Part shown: in pieces, positions 23,689 to 30,571 of the stretch
Layout of the letters: each line of letters opens with the position of its first letter
Numbering within the stretch: the first letter of the stretch is position 1
Assembly (NCBI GenBank): GCA_016792785.1
Contig: JAEUML010000025.1
Span: 1-40,019, forward strand
DNA length: 40,019 nt
Reading direction: 5' to 3'
Origin: Alphaproteobacteria bacterium
GTDB lineage: Bacteria > Pseudomonadota > Alphaproteobacteria > Micropepsales > Micropepsaceae
The notes under the pieces: model-generated
Told to the model about the DNA's origin: nothing
The model's input: the letters and a program-made list of their open reading frames with translations, nothing else
Databases searched by the model: none
Translations under genes and position numbers: made by a program

Positions 23689-24564
23689 TCAGAGCGGCTT
23701 GAAGTCGAGGCCGAGGTCGAGGCACTTCGCGGAGTGCGTGATCGCGCCTGAGGAGATCAAGTCGACGCCGGTGGCGGCGATTGCGGCGATGGTTTCGGCG
23801 GTGACGTTGCCTGAAGCCTCAAGCGTTGCGCGGCCGGCCGTGCGCTTCACCGCTTCGCGCAGCATGTCGGGCTTCATGTTGTCGAGAAGCACCGTGTTCG
23901 CGCCGTGGACGAGCGCTTCTTCGAGCTGATCGAGCCCGTCGACTTCGATCTCGACGTGGACCATGTGGCCCGCATGTTTGCGCGCGGCGAGGATCGCGTT
24001 CTTTACGCCGCCCGCCGCCACGATGTGGTTGTCCTTGATCAGAATGCCGTCGTCGAGGCCGAAGCGGTGGTTGCGTCCGCCGCCGCAACGCACGGCGTAC
24101 TTCTCGAATACGCGCAGGCCCGGGGTCGTTTTGCGCGTGCAGACGACCTTGGTCTTCGTGCCTTGTGTGAGTTTCACGAGTTTCTCGGTTGCGCTCGCGA
24201 TGCCGGAGAGGCGGCCGAGAAAGTTCAGTGCGACGCGTTCGGCGCTCAAGATCGGGCGCGCCGCGCCGAACACGACCGCGACGACTTCGCCGCGTTCGAC
24301 GTCGGCGCCGTCGGGGACGTGGATCGTGAATTTGATCGCGGGGTCCAGCAGGCGAAAGGCTGCTGCCGCGACGTCGATGCCGGCAATGCGCCCGGGTTCG
24401 CGCGCGGCGATGATGCCGTGGGCGATCGCGTGGGGCGGGATCGTCGCTTCGGTCGTTAGGTCGCCGCCGCGGCCAAAATCTTCGAGCAGCGCGGCTTTGA
24501 CTGCCGGTTCGACAATAAGGGCTGAGAGCGGTTCGACGACGACGGCAGGCGTTTTGACGTTCAT
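23689..24564 (-). CDS. nadC: Nicotinate-nucleotide pyrophosphorylase (quinolinate phosphoribosyltransferase)
   Basis: NadC converts quinolinate and PRPP to nicotinate mononucleotide, CO2 and pyrophosphate. The 291-residue protein shows EDFGRGGDLTTEATIP near the start (about 28-43), ALNFLGRLSGIAS, the substrate-binding VVCTRKTTPGLRVFEKYAV, GGGRNHRFGLDDGILIKDNH and the barrel strands VHVEIEVD, LLDNMKP, LEASGNV and DLISSGAIT. Length is typical. The ATG overlaps the nadB stop by 4 bases (ATGA), so translation should be coupled. It is the last gene of nadA-nadB-nadC and ends flush against the convergent TPR gene. Confidence 0.97.
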   Translation of the reverse strand: MNVKTPAVVVEPLSALIVEPAVKAALLEDFGRGGDLTTEATIPPHAIAHGIIAAREPGRIAGIDVAAAAFRLLDPAIKFTIHVPDGADVERGEVVAVVFGAARPILSAERVALNFLGRLSGIASATEKLVKLTQGTKTKVVCTRKTTPGLRVFEKYAVRCGGGRNHRFGLDDGILIKDNHIVAAGGVKNAILAARKHAGHMVHVEIEVDGLDQLEEALVHGANTVLLDNMKPDMLREAVKRTAGRATLEASGNVTAETIAAIAATGVDLISSGAITHSAKCLDLGLDFKPL

Positions 24565-26147
24565 CGCACCGCCTCGAGGCGGGTGGGAAGCTTCAGGCCG
24601 TCCATGGCGGCGCGCACTTGCCCCAGTGTGGTGAACGTGCGCTTTGCTTGTGCTTCGTCCGTGCGCGGATAGTCGCTGCGGAAGTGGCCGCCGCGGCTTT
24701 CCTTTCGTGCAAGCGCGGCGCCTGCGATCAGAAGCGCGGTCGCGGTCATGTTGCGCATGTCGACGTCGGCCGCGTTCGCGCGTTCGATTTGGGCGATGGC
24801 GGCGAGCGCTGCCGTCAGGTCGGCGTGATTGCGTTCCAAGCCCACGTTCATCGTCATCGTCTTGCGCAAGGTTGCGAGCGCGAGTGCCGCAGGTGCAGCG
24901 GCGCTGGGGTGAGCGGGCAATGTCAGAATCGCGTTGTCGGCGCCGACGATGTGGGCGACGTCGGCTGCTGCGCGTGCGCCGAAGACGATCGCTTCGAGCA
25001 GAGAGTTCGACGCCAAACGGTTCGCACCATGCGCGCCGGTCGAGGCGCACTCGCCGATCGCCCAGAGGCCCGGCAGACTCGTGCGCGCGTTCTCGTCCGT
25101 CGCAATGCCGCCCATGTGATAGTGCTCGGCGGGCGCCACGGGGATCAAATCCGAGCGCGGATCGATACCTGCGGACATGCAGGTTTCAAAGACGGTCGGG
25201 AAGGCCGTGGGGAACTTGGCGCCGACGGCTTGACGTGTGTCGAGGAAGACGCGGCGGCCGGCGCGGATCTCGCGGAAGATGCCGCGGGCCACGACATCGC
25301 GCGGCGCGAGTTCGGCGTCCGCGTGGGTCACGGCCATAAAGCGTTCGCCGCGGTCGTTGACCAGGATCGAGCCTTCGCCACGCAAGGCCTCGGTCGCGAG
25401 CGGCGCCGGGTCGCGGCCAAGCGCGATTGCGGTCGGGTGGAACTGCACGAACTCGGGGTCCGCGATTACTGCGCCGGCGCGGGCGGCCATGCCGACCCCT
25501 TGACCGCGCGCTTGCGGCGGGTTCGTCGTGACTTCGAACAGGCCGCCGACGCCGCCGAGCGCGAAGATCGTCGCGTCGGCGCGGATGAATACGGGGCCAG
25601 AGCGGTCGGCGGCGCGATGGGCGTAAACGCCAACGACGCGCGCGCCTTCAATCGCGAGCTCGAAGGCGACCAAGCCCTCGAGCACTGTGATGCGGGGTTC
25701 GGCGCGCACAGCCTTGATCAGCGCCGCCATGATTTCGGCGCCGGCACGGTCGCCGGTGACGCGCACGATGCGGTTCCGGGAATGGGCGGCTTCTCGGCCG
25801 AGAACGAAGTTGCCCTTCGCGTCGCGGTCGAACGGTACACCGAGGCGCGCCAGGTCTTCGATGCGCGCGGGCGCTTCGTTCGCGATCAGGTGCGCGATTG
25901 CCGGATCGACGATGCCCGCGCCTGCCGCTTCGGTGTCGCGCGCGTGGAGTTCGGGTGCGTCGTCGGGGCCGAGTGCGGCTGCGATGCCACCTTGCGCCCA
26001 GGTGCTCGATGCGCCGGAGCCCAAACTTGCCGCGGCCAGCACCGTGACCGGGCCTTTCATCTTCAGGGCGGTGAAGAGGCCCGCAAGGCCCGCACCGACG
26101 ATCAGCACGCCGCCGGGGTTCAACACGTTGTTCAGCGGTTGTGCCAT
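24561..26147 (-). CDS. nadB: L-aspartate oxidase
   Basis: NadB is the FAD enzyme that oxidises L-aspartate to iminoaspartate, the substrate of NadA. The 528-residue protein has the dinucleotide fold VLIVGAGLAGLFTALKM (about 14-30), SGASSTWAQGGIAAALG, REAAHSRNRIVR and IFALGGVGGLFEVTTNP. It has the catalytic-region PEFVQFHPTAIALG and EHYHMGGIATDENAR, then the FAD-binding LWAIGECASTGAHGANRLAS. Length matches the family (about 530). It lies 21 bases after nadA and overlaps nadC by 4 bases. Confidence 0.97.
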   Translation of the reverse strand: MAQPLNNVLNPGGVLIVGAGLAGLFTALKMKGPVTVLAAASLGSGASSTWAQGGIAAALGPDDAPELHARDTEAAGAGIVDPAIAHLIANEAPARIEDLARLGVPFDRDAKGNFVLGREAAHSRNRIVRVTGDRAGAEIMAALIKAVRAEPRITVLEGLVAFELAIEGARVVGVYAHRAADRSGPVFIRADATIFALGGVGGLFEVTTNPPQARGQGVGMAARAGAVIADPEFVQFHPTAIALGRDPAPLATEALRGEGSILVNDRGERFMAVTHADAELAPRDVVARGIFREIRAGRRVFLDTRQAVGAKFPTAFPTVFETCMSAGIDPRSDLIPVAPAEHYHMGGIATDENARTSLPGLWAIGECASTGAHGANRLASNSLLEAIVFGARAAADVAHIVGADNAILTLPAHPSAAAPAALALATLRKTMTMNVGLERNHADLTAALAAIAQIERANAADVDMRNMTATALLIAGAALARKESRGGHFRSDYPRTDEAQAKRTFTTLGQVRAAMDGLKLPTRLEAVR

Positions 26148-26168: not shown

Positions 26169-27215
26169 TCAATGCACGGCGGGTTTCGGTTTGCCGACGG
26201 CGAGCATGCGTTCAACGGCGGCCTTCGCGCGGGCGGCGACGGTGGCGTCGACCTTGACCTCGTGCGTCATCGTTTGCAGCGAGCGCAGGATCTTATCCAG
26301 CGTGATGCGCTTCATGTGCGGGCAGAGGTTGCACGGGCGCAAGAATTCGACGTCGCGCACTTGGGCCGCGATGTTGTCGGCCATCGAGCATTCGGTCAGC
26401 ATAACGACGCGCGCCGGGCGTTTCGTGTTGACGTAGTCCGTCATCGCGGAGGTTGAGCCTGCGAAGTCGCATTCGGCGACGACTTCGGCGGGGCACTCCG
26501 GGTGGGCGAGGACGACGGCGCCCGGATGGTCTGCCTTGAAGCGGCGGATGTCCTCGGCGGTGAAGCGCTCGTGCACTTCGCAGCGCCCATGCCAGGCAAT
26601 GATCTTGATCTTCGTCTGGTTCGCGACGTTCTGGGCCAAGAACTTGTCGGGAATGAAAATCACCGTGTCGACGCCGCGTTCCTTGGCGATCGATTCCACG
26701 ACCGCGACCGCGTTCGACGACGTGCAGGTGATGTCGCTTTCGGCCTTCACTTCGGCCGACGTGTTCACGTAGGTCACGACGGGCAGGTTCGGGTATTTCT
26801 GTTTCAGGAGCCGAACGTCGGCGCCGGTGATGGAGGCCGCGAGCGAGCAACCGGCTTCGAGGTCGGGGATCAGCACGGTCTTTTCCGGGGACAGAATCTT
26901 CGACGTTTCGGCCATGAAGTGAACACCGGCCTGGACGATGACCTTCGCGTCGGTCTTCGCCGCTTCGCGCGCGAGCTGCAGGCTGTCGCCTACGAAGTCT
27001 GCGACGCAGTGGAAGATCTCCGGCGTCTGATAGTTGTGGGCGAGGATGACGGCGCCGCGCTCTTTCTTCAGGCGGTTGATCTCGGCGATCACCGGCGCGA
27101 AGTGGGGCCACTCAATCTCCGGCACGACGTTTGCCACCTTCGCGTAGAGATCGCGCGTCGCAGCGGCGACTTCGGGCGTGTAGGACAGTTTCGTTGGGGT
27201 CCCGGCGGTCGACAT
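26169..27215 (-). CDS. nadA: Quinolinate synthase A
   Basis: NadA condenses iminoaspartate with dihydroxyacetone phosphate to quinolinate, using a [4Fe-4S] cluster. The 348-residue protein shows [20 protein letters not shown] (about 55-74), [66 protein letters not shown] and the final cysteine motif [16 protein letters not shown]. The three ligand cysteines are expected in AGCSLA, HPECP and the CNLCP region. It heads nadA-nadB-nadC. Two operator-like dyads and a terminator-like hairpin lie within 95 bases upstream, pointing to regulated expression. Confidence 0.97.
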
Positions 27216-27226
27216 CTGAACCTCAT

Positions 27227-27245
27227 TATGCTCAAGTTGAGCATA
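27227..27245. promoter_or_regulatory. Operator O1 of nadA: TATGCTCAA-G-TTGAGCATA
   Basis: Perfect 9+9 inverted repeat around one base, 12 bases before the nadA ATG on the minus strand and next to an AT-rich ATATAT stretch that could include a -10 element. A protein bound here should block the promoter or elongation. The best candidate regulator is the Nudix-winged-helix protein encoded at 28421-29413; that link is inference. Confidence 0.75.
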
Positions 27246-27256
27246 TATATGGTATC

Positions 27257-27281
27257 AAAAAAGGGCGGTTCCAGAGCCGCC
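27257..27281 (-). terminator. Terminator- or attenuator-like hairpin 42 bases before nadA
   Basis: Read on the minus strand, GGCGG, an 8-base loop, CCGCC and then CTTTTTT form a short intrinsic-terminator-like element. It lies between the two operator-like dyads, 42 bases before the nadA ATG. No minus-strand gene precedes it for more than 1.1 kb, so it would act on a long leader starting near 27299 or insulate nadA from antisense transcription. Confidence 0.5.
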
Positions 27282-27289
27282 TGCGAAAA

Positions 27290-27308
27290 AATGCTAGGAT
27301 TGAGCATA
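27290..27308. promoter_or_regulatory. Second operator-like dyad O2 upstream of nadA
   Basis: This 19-base stretch aligns without gaps to O1 with 14 identical positions: ATGCT and TTGAGCATA are kept and the middle is changed. The outer arms ATGCT/AGCAT remain symmetric. Its centre is 63 bases from that of O1, about six helical turns, so two dimers could sit on the same DNA face. Confidence 0.6.
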
Positions 27309-27463
27309 AGTGGAGTCAAGCGCGCATTGACGAGGCGTCCTTGCGCCGCAGATCGCGGCCATGCCAATTCGGCGCGCCCCAATGCCGCCGCACACCTCGT
27401 GCAGCGTTCGTTAGCGTTTCACCGTCGTTCTTGTTCCTCCTGTTACAAGTTTTCTTTTCCGCC

Positions 27464-28420
27464 ATGCGGTATCTGCTTTTCGTCGTGAAGCTCGCCGTGC
27501 TGGGCGGGCTCGGATTCGCGCTCGTCGTGCTTGCCGGCGTCGCCGGCTCGTCGCTGCATTGGTCGTTCGACCTTGCAGCGCAGTTTCTTCTGCCGGCGGT
27601 CGTGGTCGCGGGTGCAGCGACACTGGCCGCGGCGGCGTGCCGGTGGCCGCGGATTGCGGGCGGGGGGCTTGCGACGGCTGTTGCCGCCTATCTCGTCGCG
27701 GCGCCGTTCACCTCGGCGCCGTCGCCGGTCGCGAAGGACGCGGCGCGTTTCAAGGTGCTGCTGTTCAATGTGTGGCACGCCAACTGGCGACTTGATGACG
27801 TGCGAGAAATGGTTCGCGACACAGACGCCGATATCGTCGTTTTCGTCGAAGCCACGCCCCGCATCATCGGCGAGCTACAACCGCTTGGCGCGCTCTATCC
27901 CTATCGGTTTGATTGCGTCGGTTCGGGGCGTTGCGACATCGCGGTCTTTGCGCGCACGCGGCTGTCGTCGCCCGCCGTCAAGGCGACGGCCGATCCCGAT
28001 CGCTCGCCCGTTGTGCAGATTGAAACCCAAGTGGCCGGCTGCCGGATGAAGCTGTTTGCGACCCACATGACGCGGCCGTTTCCGAACCGTCCCTATTGGG
28101 CGCAGCGTGCGCAGGCCGAAGAGATCGCCGGCGACGTCGCGGGTTGGCCGGGCGCAAAGCTTGTTCTCGGCGACTTCAACGCTGCGCCTTGGGGCTATGT
28201 CATGCGCACGATCGCCGAACGCGGCAACGTCCGCGTTCTGACAGGTGCGGGCGGCACGTGGCATTCGCGCCTTCCGCCTCAGTTGCGCATTCCGATCGAT
28301 CACATGCTGGCAGGCCCGGGCCTCAGCTTCGTGTCGCGGCGCGTGCTGCCGAGGATCGGCTCGGACCATTTACCGGTTCTGGCTGAGATCGCGGTGACGG
28401 ACCCCGGGCAGTGCGGCTGA
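27464..28420 (+). CDS. Membrane-anchored endonuclease/exonuclease/phosphatase-fold protein
   Basis: The 318-residue protein begins with two or three hydrophobic segments (about 3-28, 37-58, 63-82). An EEP domain (about 92-315) follows, probably outside the cytoplasm. Active-site blocks of the fold are visible: LLFNVWHAN (metal/phosphate Asn), VVFVEATP (catalytic Glu), FATHMTRPFP, VLGDFNAAPW, IDHMLAG and the final GSDHLPV. Such proteins are annotated as endonuclease/exonuclease/phosphatase family; the substrate could be a nucleic acid, phospholipid or phosphoprotein. It is divergent from nadA and abuts the convergent NAD-regulator gene with no gap. Confidence 0.87.
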   Translation: MRYLLFVVKLAVLGGLGFALVVLAGVAGSSLHWSFDLAAQFLLPAVVVAGAATLAAAACRWPRIAGGGLATAVAAYLVAAPFTSAPSPVAKDAARFKVLLFNVWHANWRLDDVREMVRDTDADIVVFVEATPRIIGELQPLGALYPYRFDCVGSGRCDIAVFARTRLSSPAVKATADPDRSPVVQIETQVAGCRMKLFATHMTRPFPNRPYWAQRAQAEEIAGDVAGWPGAKLVLGDFNAAPWGYVMRTIAERGNVRVLTGAGGTWHSRLPPQLRIPIDHMLAGPGLSFVSRRVLPRIGSDHLPVLAEIAVTDPGQCG

Positions 28421-29413
28421 TCACAGACGAGCCGCGCGGCGCAGCGGAACCTTGACGCCCGGGGCAGGTCTTTCACGCAAGACTTCGCGGCGGAAGCGAA
28501 ATTCTTCTGCCGGGCGGCCGCCAGCCTTTGTCGAACGCTTGCCGGTGCGTTCGACGAGGCCCGAGGTTTCGACTAGGCGACGGAAGTTCTGCTTGTGCAG
28601 GCGAATGCCGGAGATCGCCTCGACCGTGCGCTGCAGGTCGAGCAGCGTGAACGTTGCGTCCATCACCTCGAAGACGATCGGGCGGTACTTCAGCTTGCCG
28701 CGCAGGCGGCCCATGCCGGTCGCCAGAATCCGGCGGTGGTCGAAAAGCATCGCTTCGCCGAAGCGGGCTTGGTCTTCGGCGGGCGGGGCTGACGGGGGCA
28801 GGGTGCGGCCGTCACGACGCGCTTCGAGCACGAGGCCCGCTTCGTACATCAGCTCGTACCGCTCGAGCACCTTCTCTTCGTCCCAATGCAAGCCGTCGAA
28901 GCCGAAGCAGAGGCGTGTGCGTTCGTTGCGCGCCTGCGCGTCGGCGAGCTTCGCCCACGCGTCGAGGCGCGGGCGGATCATTGCGTCGATGATCGCCGGG
29001 CGTTCCTTGCGCCAATCCTCCCACGGAAAGAAGTCGTAGATGTTGCGCCAACGCCCGGCGCTGTCGGCGGCCTCGCGCGTCAATGCGAGATAACCGACGG
29101 AAACGACACGCGGACCCTCGCCGGGTTCGAGCTCGTGGCGGCCGCGGTCGCCGAACGTGTAGAGTTGCTCGACGTAACCGAGCGACACCTGCGTCTGATC
29201 CTTCACCAGATTGCGCAGGCCGATTTCGAGGGTGCGGTGGCGTTCGGGTTCGAATGGACCGAACGGTAGGCCGTCCGAGGCGTGCGCTTTCGATACCGGA
29301 TCGCGCCGCACGACGAGGACGCGCGGCACGTCATCGCCGACCGTCACGACGCAGGCGTTCAGGCCGATGATGACGGCATTGGCTGCTTCGCGAATGGCGG
29401 CGGGCCTGCTCAT
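28421..29413 (-). CDS. Nudix-fold winged-helix NAD regulator (NadQ/NrtR-like)
   Basis: A 330-residue protein. The N-terminal half has a Nudix fold: ANAVIIGLNACVVTVG and RVLVVRRDPV, then GPFEPERHRTLEIGLRNLV and YVEQLYTFGDRGRHE. The catalytic box REUXEE is replaced by RNLVKD, so hydrolysis is unlikely. The C-terminal part (about 240-330) looks like a winged helix, with LHKQNFRRLVETSGLVE and a GGRPAEEFRFR wing like those of NrtR regulators. I recall the alphaproteobacterial family as NadQ/NAD regulator (COG4111). A nad operon with operator dyads lies 1.2 kb away. It overlaps the upstream phosphatase gene by 4 bases. Confidence 0.75.
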   Translation of the reverse strand: MSRPAAIREAANAVIIGLNACVVTVGDDVPRVLVVRRDPVSKAHASDGLPFGPFEPERHRTLEIGLRNLVKDQTQVSLGYVEQLYTFGDRGRHELEPGEGPRVVSVGYLALTREAADSAGRWRNIYDFFPWEDWRKERPAIIDAMIRPRLDAWAKLADAQARNERTRLCFGFDGLHWDEEKVLERYELMYEAGLVLEARRDGRTLPPSAPPAEDQARFGEAMLFDHRRILATGMGRLRGKLKYRPIVFEVMDATFTLLDLQRTVEAISGIRLHKQNFRRLVETSGLVERTGKRSTKAGGRPAEEFRFRREVLRERPAPGVKVPLRRAARL

Positions 29414-29925
29414 GGATCGAGATGCAGCGCGAACAGGCGGCCTTCGAAGACCACCTGGGCGGGGCCCATCGCGTCGATCGCGTCGACCATGCGGCCGTCG
29501 CGGCCGAGCAGCGCGTCGGCGAGCGCGACGATGCGCGGGTTCGGCTGGGCGTGCGCGGCGGCGCTGCGCAGGCGCAGTGCGATGTCTCGCTCGCGGCCGG
29601 GCGCGCTGAACATGCAGGCGACGGTGAACGCCGAGGCGGTCGAGCGGCTGATCCCCGCCCAACAGTGGATCAGCATCGGTTGCGCGCGATCCCACTCTCT
29701 GGTGAAGGCGATGAGTTCGCGCACATGCATTTCGTCGGGGGCGGTGTATTCGGGGCGGTCGGTTGCGATGTCGTGCATGCCGAGACGCAGATGGCGGTGG
29801 CCCGGAAAACCCTCCGGCGTCGGCATGTCGTCGGCGGGGTCGAGCAGCGTGATCAGATGCGACGGGCGCAACCGCTCGACCGACTGGGGCACTTTGCTTT
29901 TTGGGCAGACATAGATTGCGGGCAT
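29410..29925 (-). CDS. Protein tyrosine phosphatase-like protein
   Basis: A 171-residue protein with the cysteine-phosphatase loop HCWAGISRS (HCx5R, about 92-100). A plausible general-acid Asp lies in the GMHDIATDR segment (about 49-57), and family-like elements precede it (YVCPKSKVPQSV, THLITLLDP-type HLITLLDPADD). The substrate could be a protein, nucleotide or inositol phosphate. Its ATG shares one base with the HD-hydrolase stop (TGATG) and its stop overlaps the NAD-regulator start by 4 bases. The three genes are therefore translationally linked. I recall this gene neighbouring the same partners in other alphaproteobacteria. Confidence 0.78.
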   Translation of the reverse strand: MPAIYVCPKSKVPQSVERLRPSHLITLLDPADDMPTPEGFPGHRHLRLGMHDIATDRPEYTAPDEMHVRELIAFTREWDRAQPMLIHCWAGISRSTASAFTVACMFSAPGRERDIALRLRSAAAHAQPNPRIVALADALLGRDGRMVDAIDAMGPAQVVFEGRLFALHLDP

Positions 29926-30536
29926 CAGCGGCCTTGCTCACCGGGCAGGAGCGTTTTGACGCGTTCGACGAACTGGCGTTGCGCTTCCGCCGCGGGCAGG
30001 GGTGCGAGCTTTACGGGCGCCACACCGCGGGTCGAGCCGAAGAACGATAGCGCCTCTTCCGGCGCGAAACCCGCAAGCTGCGTCGCTTCGAAGAAGGCGG
30101 CTGCCTTGTCGGCGCGCTTGATGAGCGCGGTCACGTCTTCGGGCAGTTGCGCGGGAAGGCCGAAGCGGACGTGGATCGCGGCGAGCAGCTTGTTCTCGAG
30201 CGCCTTGTAGTCCAGACCGACTGCGGCCTTGAACGGACTGATCAGGTCGCCAACGACGTATTCCGGCGCATCGTGCAGCAGCGCTGCGAGGCGCCAGCGT
30301 TGGGAGAGCCCCGGTTTGAGCTGTCCCGTGAAATCCTCCACGAGCATGCAGTGCTGCGCGACCGAGAATGCGTGATCGCCGTAGGTCTGACCGTTCCAGC
30401 GGGCAACGCGCGCGAGGCCGTGGGCGATGTCCTCGATCTCGATGTCGAACGGCGAGGGATCGAGAAGATCGAGCCGGCGTCCCGACAACATGCGCTGCCA
30501 TGCGCGCGGTTGCAGTGCTTTCTGGAGTTTTGCCAT
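29925..30536 (-). CDS. HD-domain phosphohydrolase (YfbR-like)
   Basis: About 203 residues from the ATG at 30536 (MAKLQKALQPRAWQRM). The HD metal motif is spread over DHAFSVAQHC (about 63-72), LLHDAPEYVVGD (about 95-106) and a later Asp in LIKRADKAAAFFEA. This arrangement is of the YfbR type, which removes phosphate from 5'-deoxynucleotides. An earlier ATG at 30566 would add ten residues but overlaps the FNR/FixK-type box at 30558-30571, so the shorter start is preferred. It heads the operon HD-phosphatase-regulator and is divergent from the universal stress gene. Confidence 0.82.
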   Translation of the reverse strand: MAKLQKALQPRAWQRMLSGRRLDLLDPSPFDIEIEDIAHGLARVARWNGQTYGDHAFSVAQHCMLVEDFTGQLKPGLSQRWRLAALLHDAPEYVVGDLISPFKAAVGLDYKALENKLLAAIHVRFGLPAQLPEDVTALIKRADKAAAFFEATQLAGFAPEEALSFFGSTRGVAPVKLAPLPAAEAQRQFVERVKTLLPGEQGR

Positions 30537-30557
30537 GCTGTTGTTGAGCTTAATCGC

Positions 30558-30571
30558 TTGATTCATGTCAA
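30558..30571 (+). promoter_or_regulatory. FNR/FixK-type box, TTGAT-N4-GTCAA, for the stress-protein gene
   Basis: TTGATTCATGTCAA matches the Crp-Fnr family consensus TTGAY-N4-RTCAA at all fixed positions. A -10-like TACATT lies at 30594-30599. If transcription begins near 30606, the box centre (30564.5) is at -41.5, the classical class II activator position, and the 20-base leader holds a strong AGAGGAGGG ribosome site before the GTG start. It suggests oxygen-dependent control of 30626-31864. Confidence 0.68.

Follow-up and report, generated by a model that had tools for sequence, protein, structure and literature searches.

The nadA leader of the window (the whole 40,019-nucleotide stretch of DNA analysed, which is a single contig from the 3.96 Mb draft genome of an alphaproteobacterium) carries two predicted operators for the regulator NadQ, the upstream of which (op2) overlaps the -10 element of the promoter. 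Between them lies a conserved terminator-like hairpin whose end keeps, among related genomes, a near-constant distance from the downstream operator (op1). We propose, with slightly better than even confidence, that NadQ blocks initiation at op2 and acts as a roadblock at op1, where it would gate the weak leader terminator. In its broader form, a reading that we regard as evenly balanced, NadQ operators may be repressor-gated intrinsic terminators, in which a repressor bound at a fixed distance switches on a weak promoter-proximal terminator. They would then be a bacterial counterpart of the Pol I terminators built from a hairpin, a T-tract and a roadblock, conserved across the Alphaproteobacteria and present in Betaproteobacteria.

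The operon lies on the reverse strand and begins with nadA, encoding quinolinate synthase (26169..27215, ATG at 27215; PF02445 E=3e-113, TIGR00550). It continues with nadB, encoding L-aspartate oxidase (24561..26147; NF005701 / TIGR00551), and with nadC (23689..24564), an open reading frame that overlaps the nadB stop by 4 nt and, used as a query, matches nadC in other genomes. The neighbour upstream of nadA, an Exo_endo_phos gene on the forward strand (27464-28420), is divergent, and the leader has no upstream gene on its own strand, as the preliminary description had stated. The protein proposed there as the candidate regulator, encoded on the reverse strand at 28421-29413, is NadQ (COG4111). 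It matches the NadQ structure PDB 7q91 with E=8.6e-81 over residues 19-326 and contains an NrtR-type winged helix (PF21906 NrtR_WHD, E=3e-18), and the operator ahead of nadA has the NadQ motif. According to the title of the paper on its structure (Minazzato 2022, cited in PMC11452294), NadQ is an ATP-responsive, Nudix-like regulator. The nadQ gene overlaps an upstream small-protein gene (29410-29925, reverse strand), which has a CWAGISRS phosphatase-like motif and no Pfam match, and a gene with an HD-like motif (29925-30566, reverse strand) lies further upstream; these genes may form one operon with nadQ.

Op1 (27227..27245, reverse strand) is the perfect dyad TATGCTCAA-G-TTGAGCATA, located 11-12 nt ahead of the nadA ATG and at about +40 to +58 of the predicted transcript. 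Its 17-nt core fits the published NadQ operator, ttATRCTCannntGAGYATaa (PMC5343134), with 0 mismatches and is the sole zero-mismatch site in the 3.96 Mb assembly. Op2 (27290..27308, reverse strand) reads ATGCTCAATCCTAGCAT along the nadA strand and has 2 mismatches to the consensus; it is identical to op1 at 14/19 positions with the two centres 63 bp apart, and its pattern ATGCTCAnnnnTAGCAT is kept in relatives. Both dyads had been correctly described before, together with the suggestion that they repress nadABC. That suggestion is strengthened by the relatives, where the operator pair, with its promoter overlap, is conserved in 29/30 same-family nadA loci. Judged by sequence, both dyads are predicted NadQ operators and ordinary members of the known regulon. 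Two 1-mismatch sites elsewhere in the genome were checked as further NadQ targets and rejected, as both fall within long ORFs. When transcribed, the op1 palindrome would itself form an RNA hairpin (27226-27246, reverse strand; -8.9 kcal/mol, z -5.3) directly 5' of the nadA ribosome-binding region, and an effect on nadA translation is possible.

The imperfection of op2 is explained by its right half, TAGCAT, which also serves as the -10 element (27291..27296, reverse strand) of the nadA promoter P1, an overlap absent from the preliminary description. With the -35 element TTGACT at 27314..27319 on the same strand, P1 reads TTGACT-17-TAGCAT and is the sole sigma70-like promoter in the 3 kb scanned. 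By departing from its palindrome, op2 seems to reconcile the needs of an operator with those of a promoter. TAGCAT is present in 42/66 leaders of wider relatives with a distant op2, and 38 of these 42 also have TTGA at 16-18 bp; the right half of op1 mostly stays TGAG(C/T)AT in the same wider relatives, where op2 has TAGCAT instead. Placing predicted starts 7 nt after the -10 element, we infer that transcription from P1 begins near 27284. Given the overlap of op2 with the -10 element, the predicted transcript therefore enters the hairpin at about +4.

On the nadA strand the sequence between the operators contains GGCGGCTCTGGAACCGCC, then C, then six T. The GC hairpin and T-run previously noted between the dyads are thus a GGCGG-loop-CCGCC stem-loop at 27281-27264 and a TTTTTT tract at 27262-27257, both on the reverse strand. 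A GC-rich hairpin followed immediately by a U-tract on the transcribed strand, and conserved, has the features of an intrinsic terminator, and its location between predicted P1, whose -35 and -10 elements are conserved, and the first gene is that of an attenuator. Release is predicted near 27256 and would yield an RNA of ~29 nt. The earlier suggestion of attenuation is in keeping with this putative leader terminator. In this single sequence the hairpin is not significant (fold z = -0.8), and we therefore place all weight on the comparison with relatives. A riboswitch or known leader RNA was rejected on the Rfam result, which gave nothing at gathering score among nine related loci, the window itself yielding only sub-threshold matches; neither an antiterminator nor an aptamer nor a leader peptide was found, with 0-20 nt before the stem, and a leader peptide was also rejected for insufficient space ahead of the hairpin. 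The terminator of an upstream gene was rejected as well, since the upstream neighbour is divergent and P1 precedes the hairpin.

The comparison covered nadA leaders that have a NadQ site, 142 after removal of redundancy, taken from family, class and named genomes. A terminator-like hairpin lies within 60 nt before op1 in 107/142 of them. In 93/142 it is followed by a T-run and its stem end falls 16-21 nt ahead of op1, an arrangement for which dinucleotide shuffles predict 3.4. Across a 90-nt interval the hairpin occurs in 109/142 leaders on the sense strand versus 27/142 on the antisense strand, the corresponding counts downstream of op1 being 13 and 34. A hairpin score blind to T peaks sharply where the stem ends 19 nt before op1, and the next 8 bases average 5.2 T over 106 loci that were not selected for it. 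The stems have changed while remaining paired, with C-G, G-C, A-T and T-A all seen at one same position; the loci used for this observation were chosen as paired, so that the shuffle test stands as the formal test for the hairpin.

The stem end lies 19.0 nt before op1 (mode 19) with an sd of 1.0, a spread limited by the -16 to -21 acceptance window; the distribution is equally peaked without this restriction, the stem ends of 84/107 hairpins found anywhere from -60 to -8 falling at -18, -19 or -20. The distance from op2 to the stem, in contrast, has an sd of 6.7 nt, and the hairpin is therefore tied to op1 and not to the promoter. The role of the hairpin, left unexplained in the preliminary description, now has a candidate in this fixed gap of 18-20 nt to op1 across the Alphaproteobacteria. 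Where op2 lies 35 bp or less from op1 a hairpin at that position is found in 0/10 leaders, compared with 58/66 where op2 is distant (p=5e-8), an absence that is partly forced because there is no room between the operators. The predicted stems start at +1 to +20 and the predicted released RNAs are 24-42 nt long, 29 nt here. Between the T-run and op1 (27245-27256 and the equivalent region of relatives) most leaders also keep CC at -8/-7 and an A/T-rich, CATAT-like end; an extended operator, a pause element or a melting region are candidate roles for this stretch.

In an even draw across the class the module was found in 18 GTDB families, and named carriers include Rhizobium, Phyllobacterium, Shinella, Rhodoblastus, Parvibaculum, Phenylobacterium, Aquisalinus and Marinicaulis. 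About a third of the leaders are without it, some of these having op1 and no visible op2. In Betaproteobacteria the NadQ site precedes nadC, and three genera have a TAGCAT-type op2, a hairpin with a T-run at -18 or -19, and op1, while a fourth locus has the T-run and a poor hairpin. As the module precedes nadC in this group, it tracks the NadQ operator and not nadA. A perfect NadQ-like site, preceded at 18 nt by a hairpin and T-run, is also present in one betaproteobacterium (L159:233-1450, reverse strand) ahead of a gene for a periplasmic substrate-binding protein, possibly reflecting uptake of an NAD precursor under NadQ control. The hairpin is absent in Rhodobacterales and in Brevundimonas, with the exception of Brevundimonas locus L112, and op1 in these groups apparently sits at the promoter or start, a position judged by eye. 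Rhodobacterales-type nadA leaders (L154, L265, L266 and L268) have two NadQ sites ~59 bp apart with an apparent promoter between them, op1 at the start and no hairpin. In one further case, L225 (genome G117), the genome has nadQ but nadA is preceded by nothing that can be recognised as a NadQ site; the long hairpin CGTTTCGAGCAAA..TTTGCTCGAAACG in the vicinity of nadA is perhaps a diverged operator.

How might the operators and the terminator work together? NadQ bound to op2 would cover the P1 spacer and -10 element and so block initiation. Op1 lies inside the leader, ~40 bp into the predicted transcript, and NadQ bound there would form a roadblock to any polymerase that had left P1. We infer NadQ occupancy, stalling on the U-tract and a dependence of termination on NadQ. 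Once the polymerase was halted, its active site would lie over the U-tract of a short and rather weak terminator, whose stem stops about 19 nt short of op1; this pause would allow time for the hairpin to form, and the polymerase would be released with an abortive RNA of ~30 nt, giving attenuation at about +30. Without NadQ the weak terminator would mostly be read through. With a mode of 6 bp and a median of -8.3 kcal/mol, the stems are short, as fits a conditional terminator. In E. coli, roadblocks 30-60 bp from the promoter leak more than expected, and early polymerase is perhaps resistant to Mfd (PMC4132739); such leakiness and resistance would provide a reason for a built-in terminator.

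A precedent for the geometry comes from Pol I, which is halted 15 bp before the Reb1 site and released by the RNA hairpin with help from a T-rich tract (PMC12366685). The same distance argues against our proposal, as a stall 15 bp before the op1 core would leave the active site ~4 nt beyond the stem, where the U-tract starts, whereas 7-9 nt (about 8) are usually required for release. The polymerase must therefore press closer to the operator, or the hairpin must invade, and this active-site distance is the weakest link of the proposal. Termination at about +30 would also be unusually early, which again counts against it, as does the lack of the module in about a third of the leaders, and the fixed gap between stem and op1 might serve another purpose.

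The terminator could instead simply dampen nadABC, either constitutively or under some other control, with NadQ acting separately at op1 and op2, a reading that we consider unlikely. It is consistent with a conserved terminator ahead of the genes, and shared ancestry could partly account for the fixed spacing. However, the leader of 0-20 nt before the hairpin cannot accommodate a sensor domain or leader peptide, the stem keeps its distance to op1 while its sequence and its distance from the promoter vary, and no hairpin is found where op1 is close to the promoter. Less likely still, the structure may serve as a 5'-terminal hairpin that guards the nad mRNA against decay, or that prevents backtracking of the roadblocked polymerase and so aids read-through on derepression. 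A stem starting within the first 20 nt of the predicted transcript would suit this role, but neither version needs the T-run, nor a constant spacing from the operator. A second promoter near op1, where TATAT lies just upstream, might drive nadA while the hairpin ends transcripts from P1 or from read-through. Many loci do have an AT-rich CATATAT ahead of op1, yet this arrangement seems improbable: no promoter-like match was found near op1 in the window, op1 keeps the operator half that op2 has exchanged for TAGCAT, and Phenylobacterium-type leaders are without TATAT. Looping between cooperative NadQ dimers on the same DNA face, in line with the cooperative, helically phased pair that about six turns would suggest in the preliminary description, was rejected as very improbable, because the operator pairs, though found 55-89 bp apart in many genomes, follow no 10.5-bp phase (Rayleigh R 0.12, p about 0.45), which makes the six turns incidental, and because the hairpin would be left unaccounted for.

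If NadQ does gate the terminator, one repressor would govern both initiation and intrinsic termination, stopping the polymerase on a dedicated U-tract. This would explain how a promoter-near roadblock could repress tightly without clogging the promoter, despite the reported leakiness and perhaps poor removal by Mfd. The geometry of a stem, about 19 nt and an operator would be simple and transplantable, and NAD synthesis in a large bacterial group would gain a further level of regulation. As far as could be checked, the operator-locked conserved terminator appears to be a new element of the NadQ regulon: the parts of the NadQ literature available to us (PMC5343134, PMC11452294) make no mention of the overlap of op2 with the -10 element, the terminator or the fixed spacing. 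Our literature search, which ran mostly outside the subscription journals, returned no described case of a bacterial repressor roadblock joined to an intrinsic terminator.

The regulator, operator motif and target genes are all shared with the known NadQ regulon (COG4111; PMC5343134; structures 7q91-7q94). The published account covers palindromes and regulon content, to which the present analysis adds the overlap of op2 with the -10 element, the putative leader terminator and the fixed spacing to op1. Bacterial roadblock repression by LacI, PurR, CodY and CcpA (PMC10310618) similarly involves a DNA-bound repressor downstream of the start that blocks elongating polymerase, as NadQ would do here. 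In those systems Mfd or possibly Rho is credited with clearing the stalled polymerase, whereas the NadQ leaders have a dedicated hairpin and U-tract at a fixed upstream distance. Termination of Pol I by Reb1 or Nsi1 (PMC12366685) shares the order and similar spacing of RNA hairpin, T-rich tract and roadblock protein, but it is a process of eukaryotic 3'-end formation and not of regulated repression, and the proteins are unrelated to NadQ. Attenuation of the trp, riboswitch and TRAP types likewise relies on a leader terminator ahead of biosynthetic genes; in the NadQ leaders the 0-20 nt before the hairpin have room for no leader peptide, aptamer or antiterminator, and the sensor would instead be the DNA-bound repressor.
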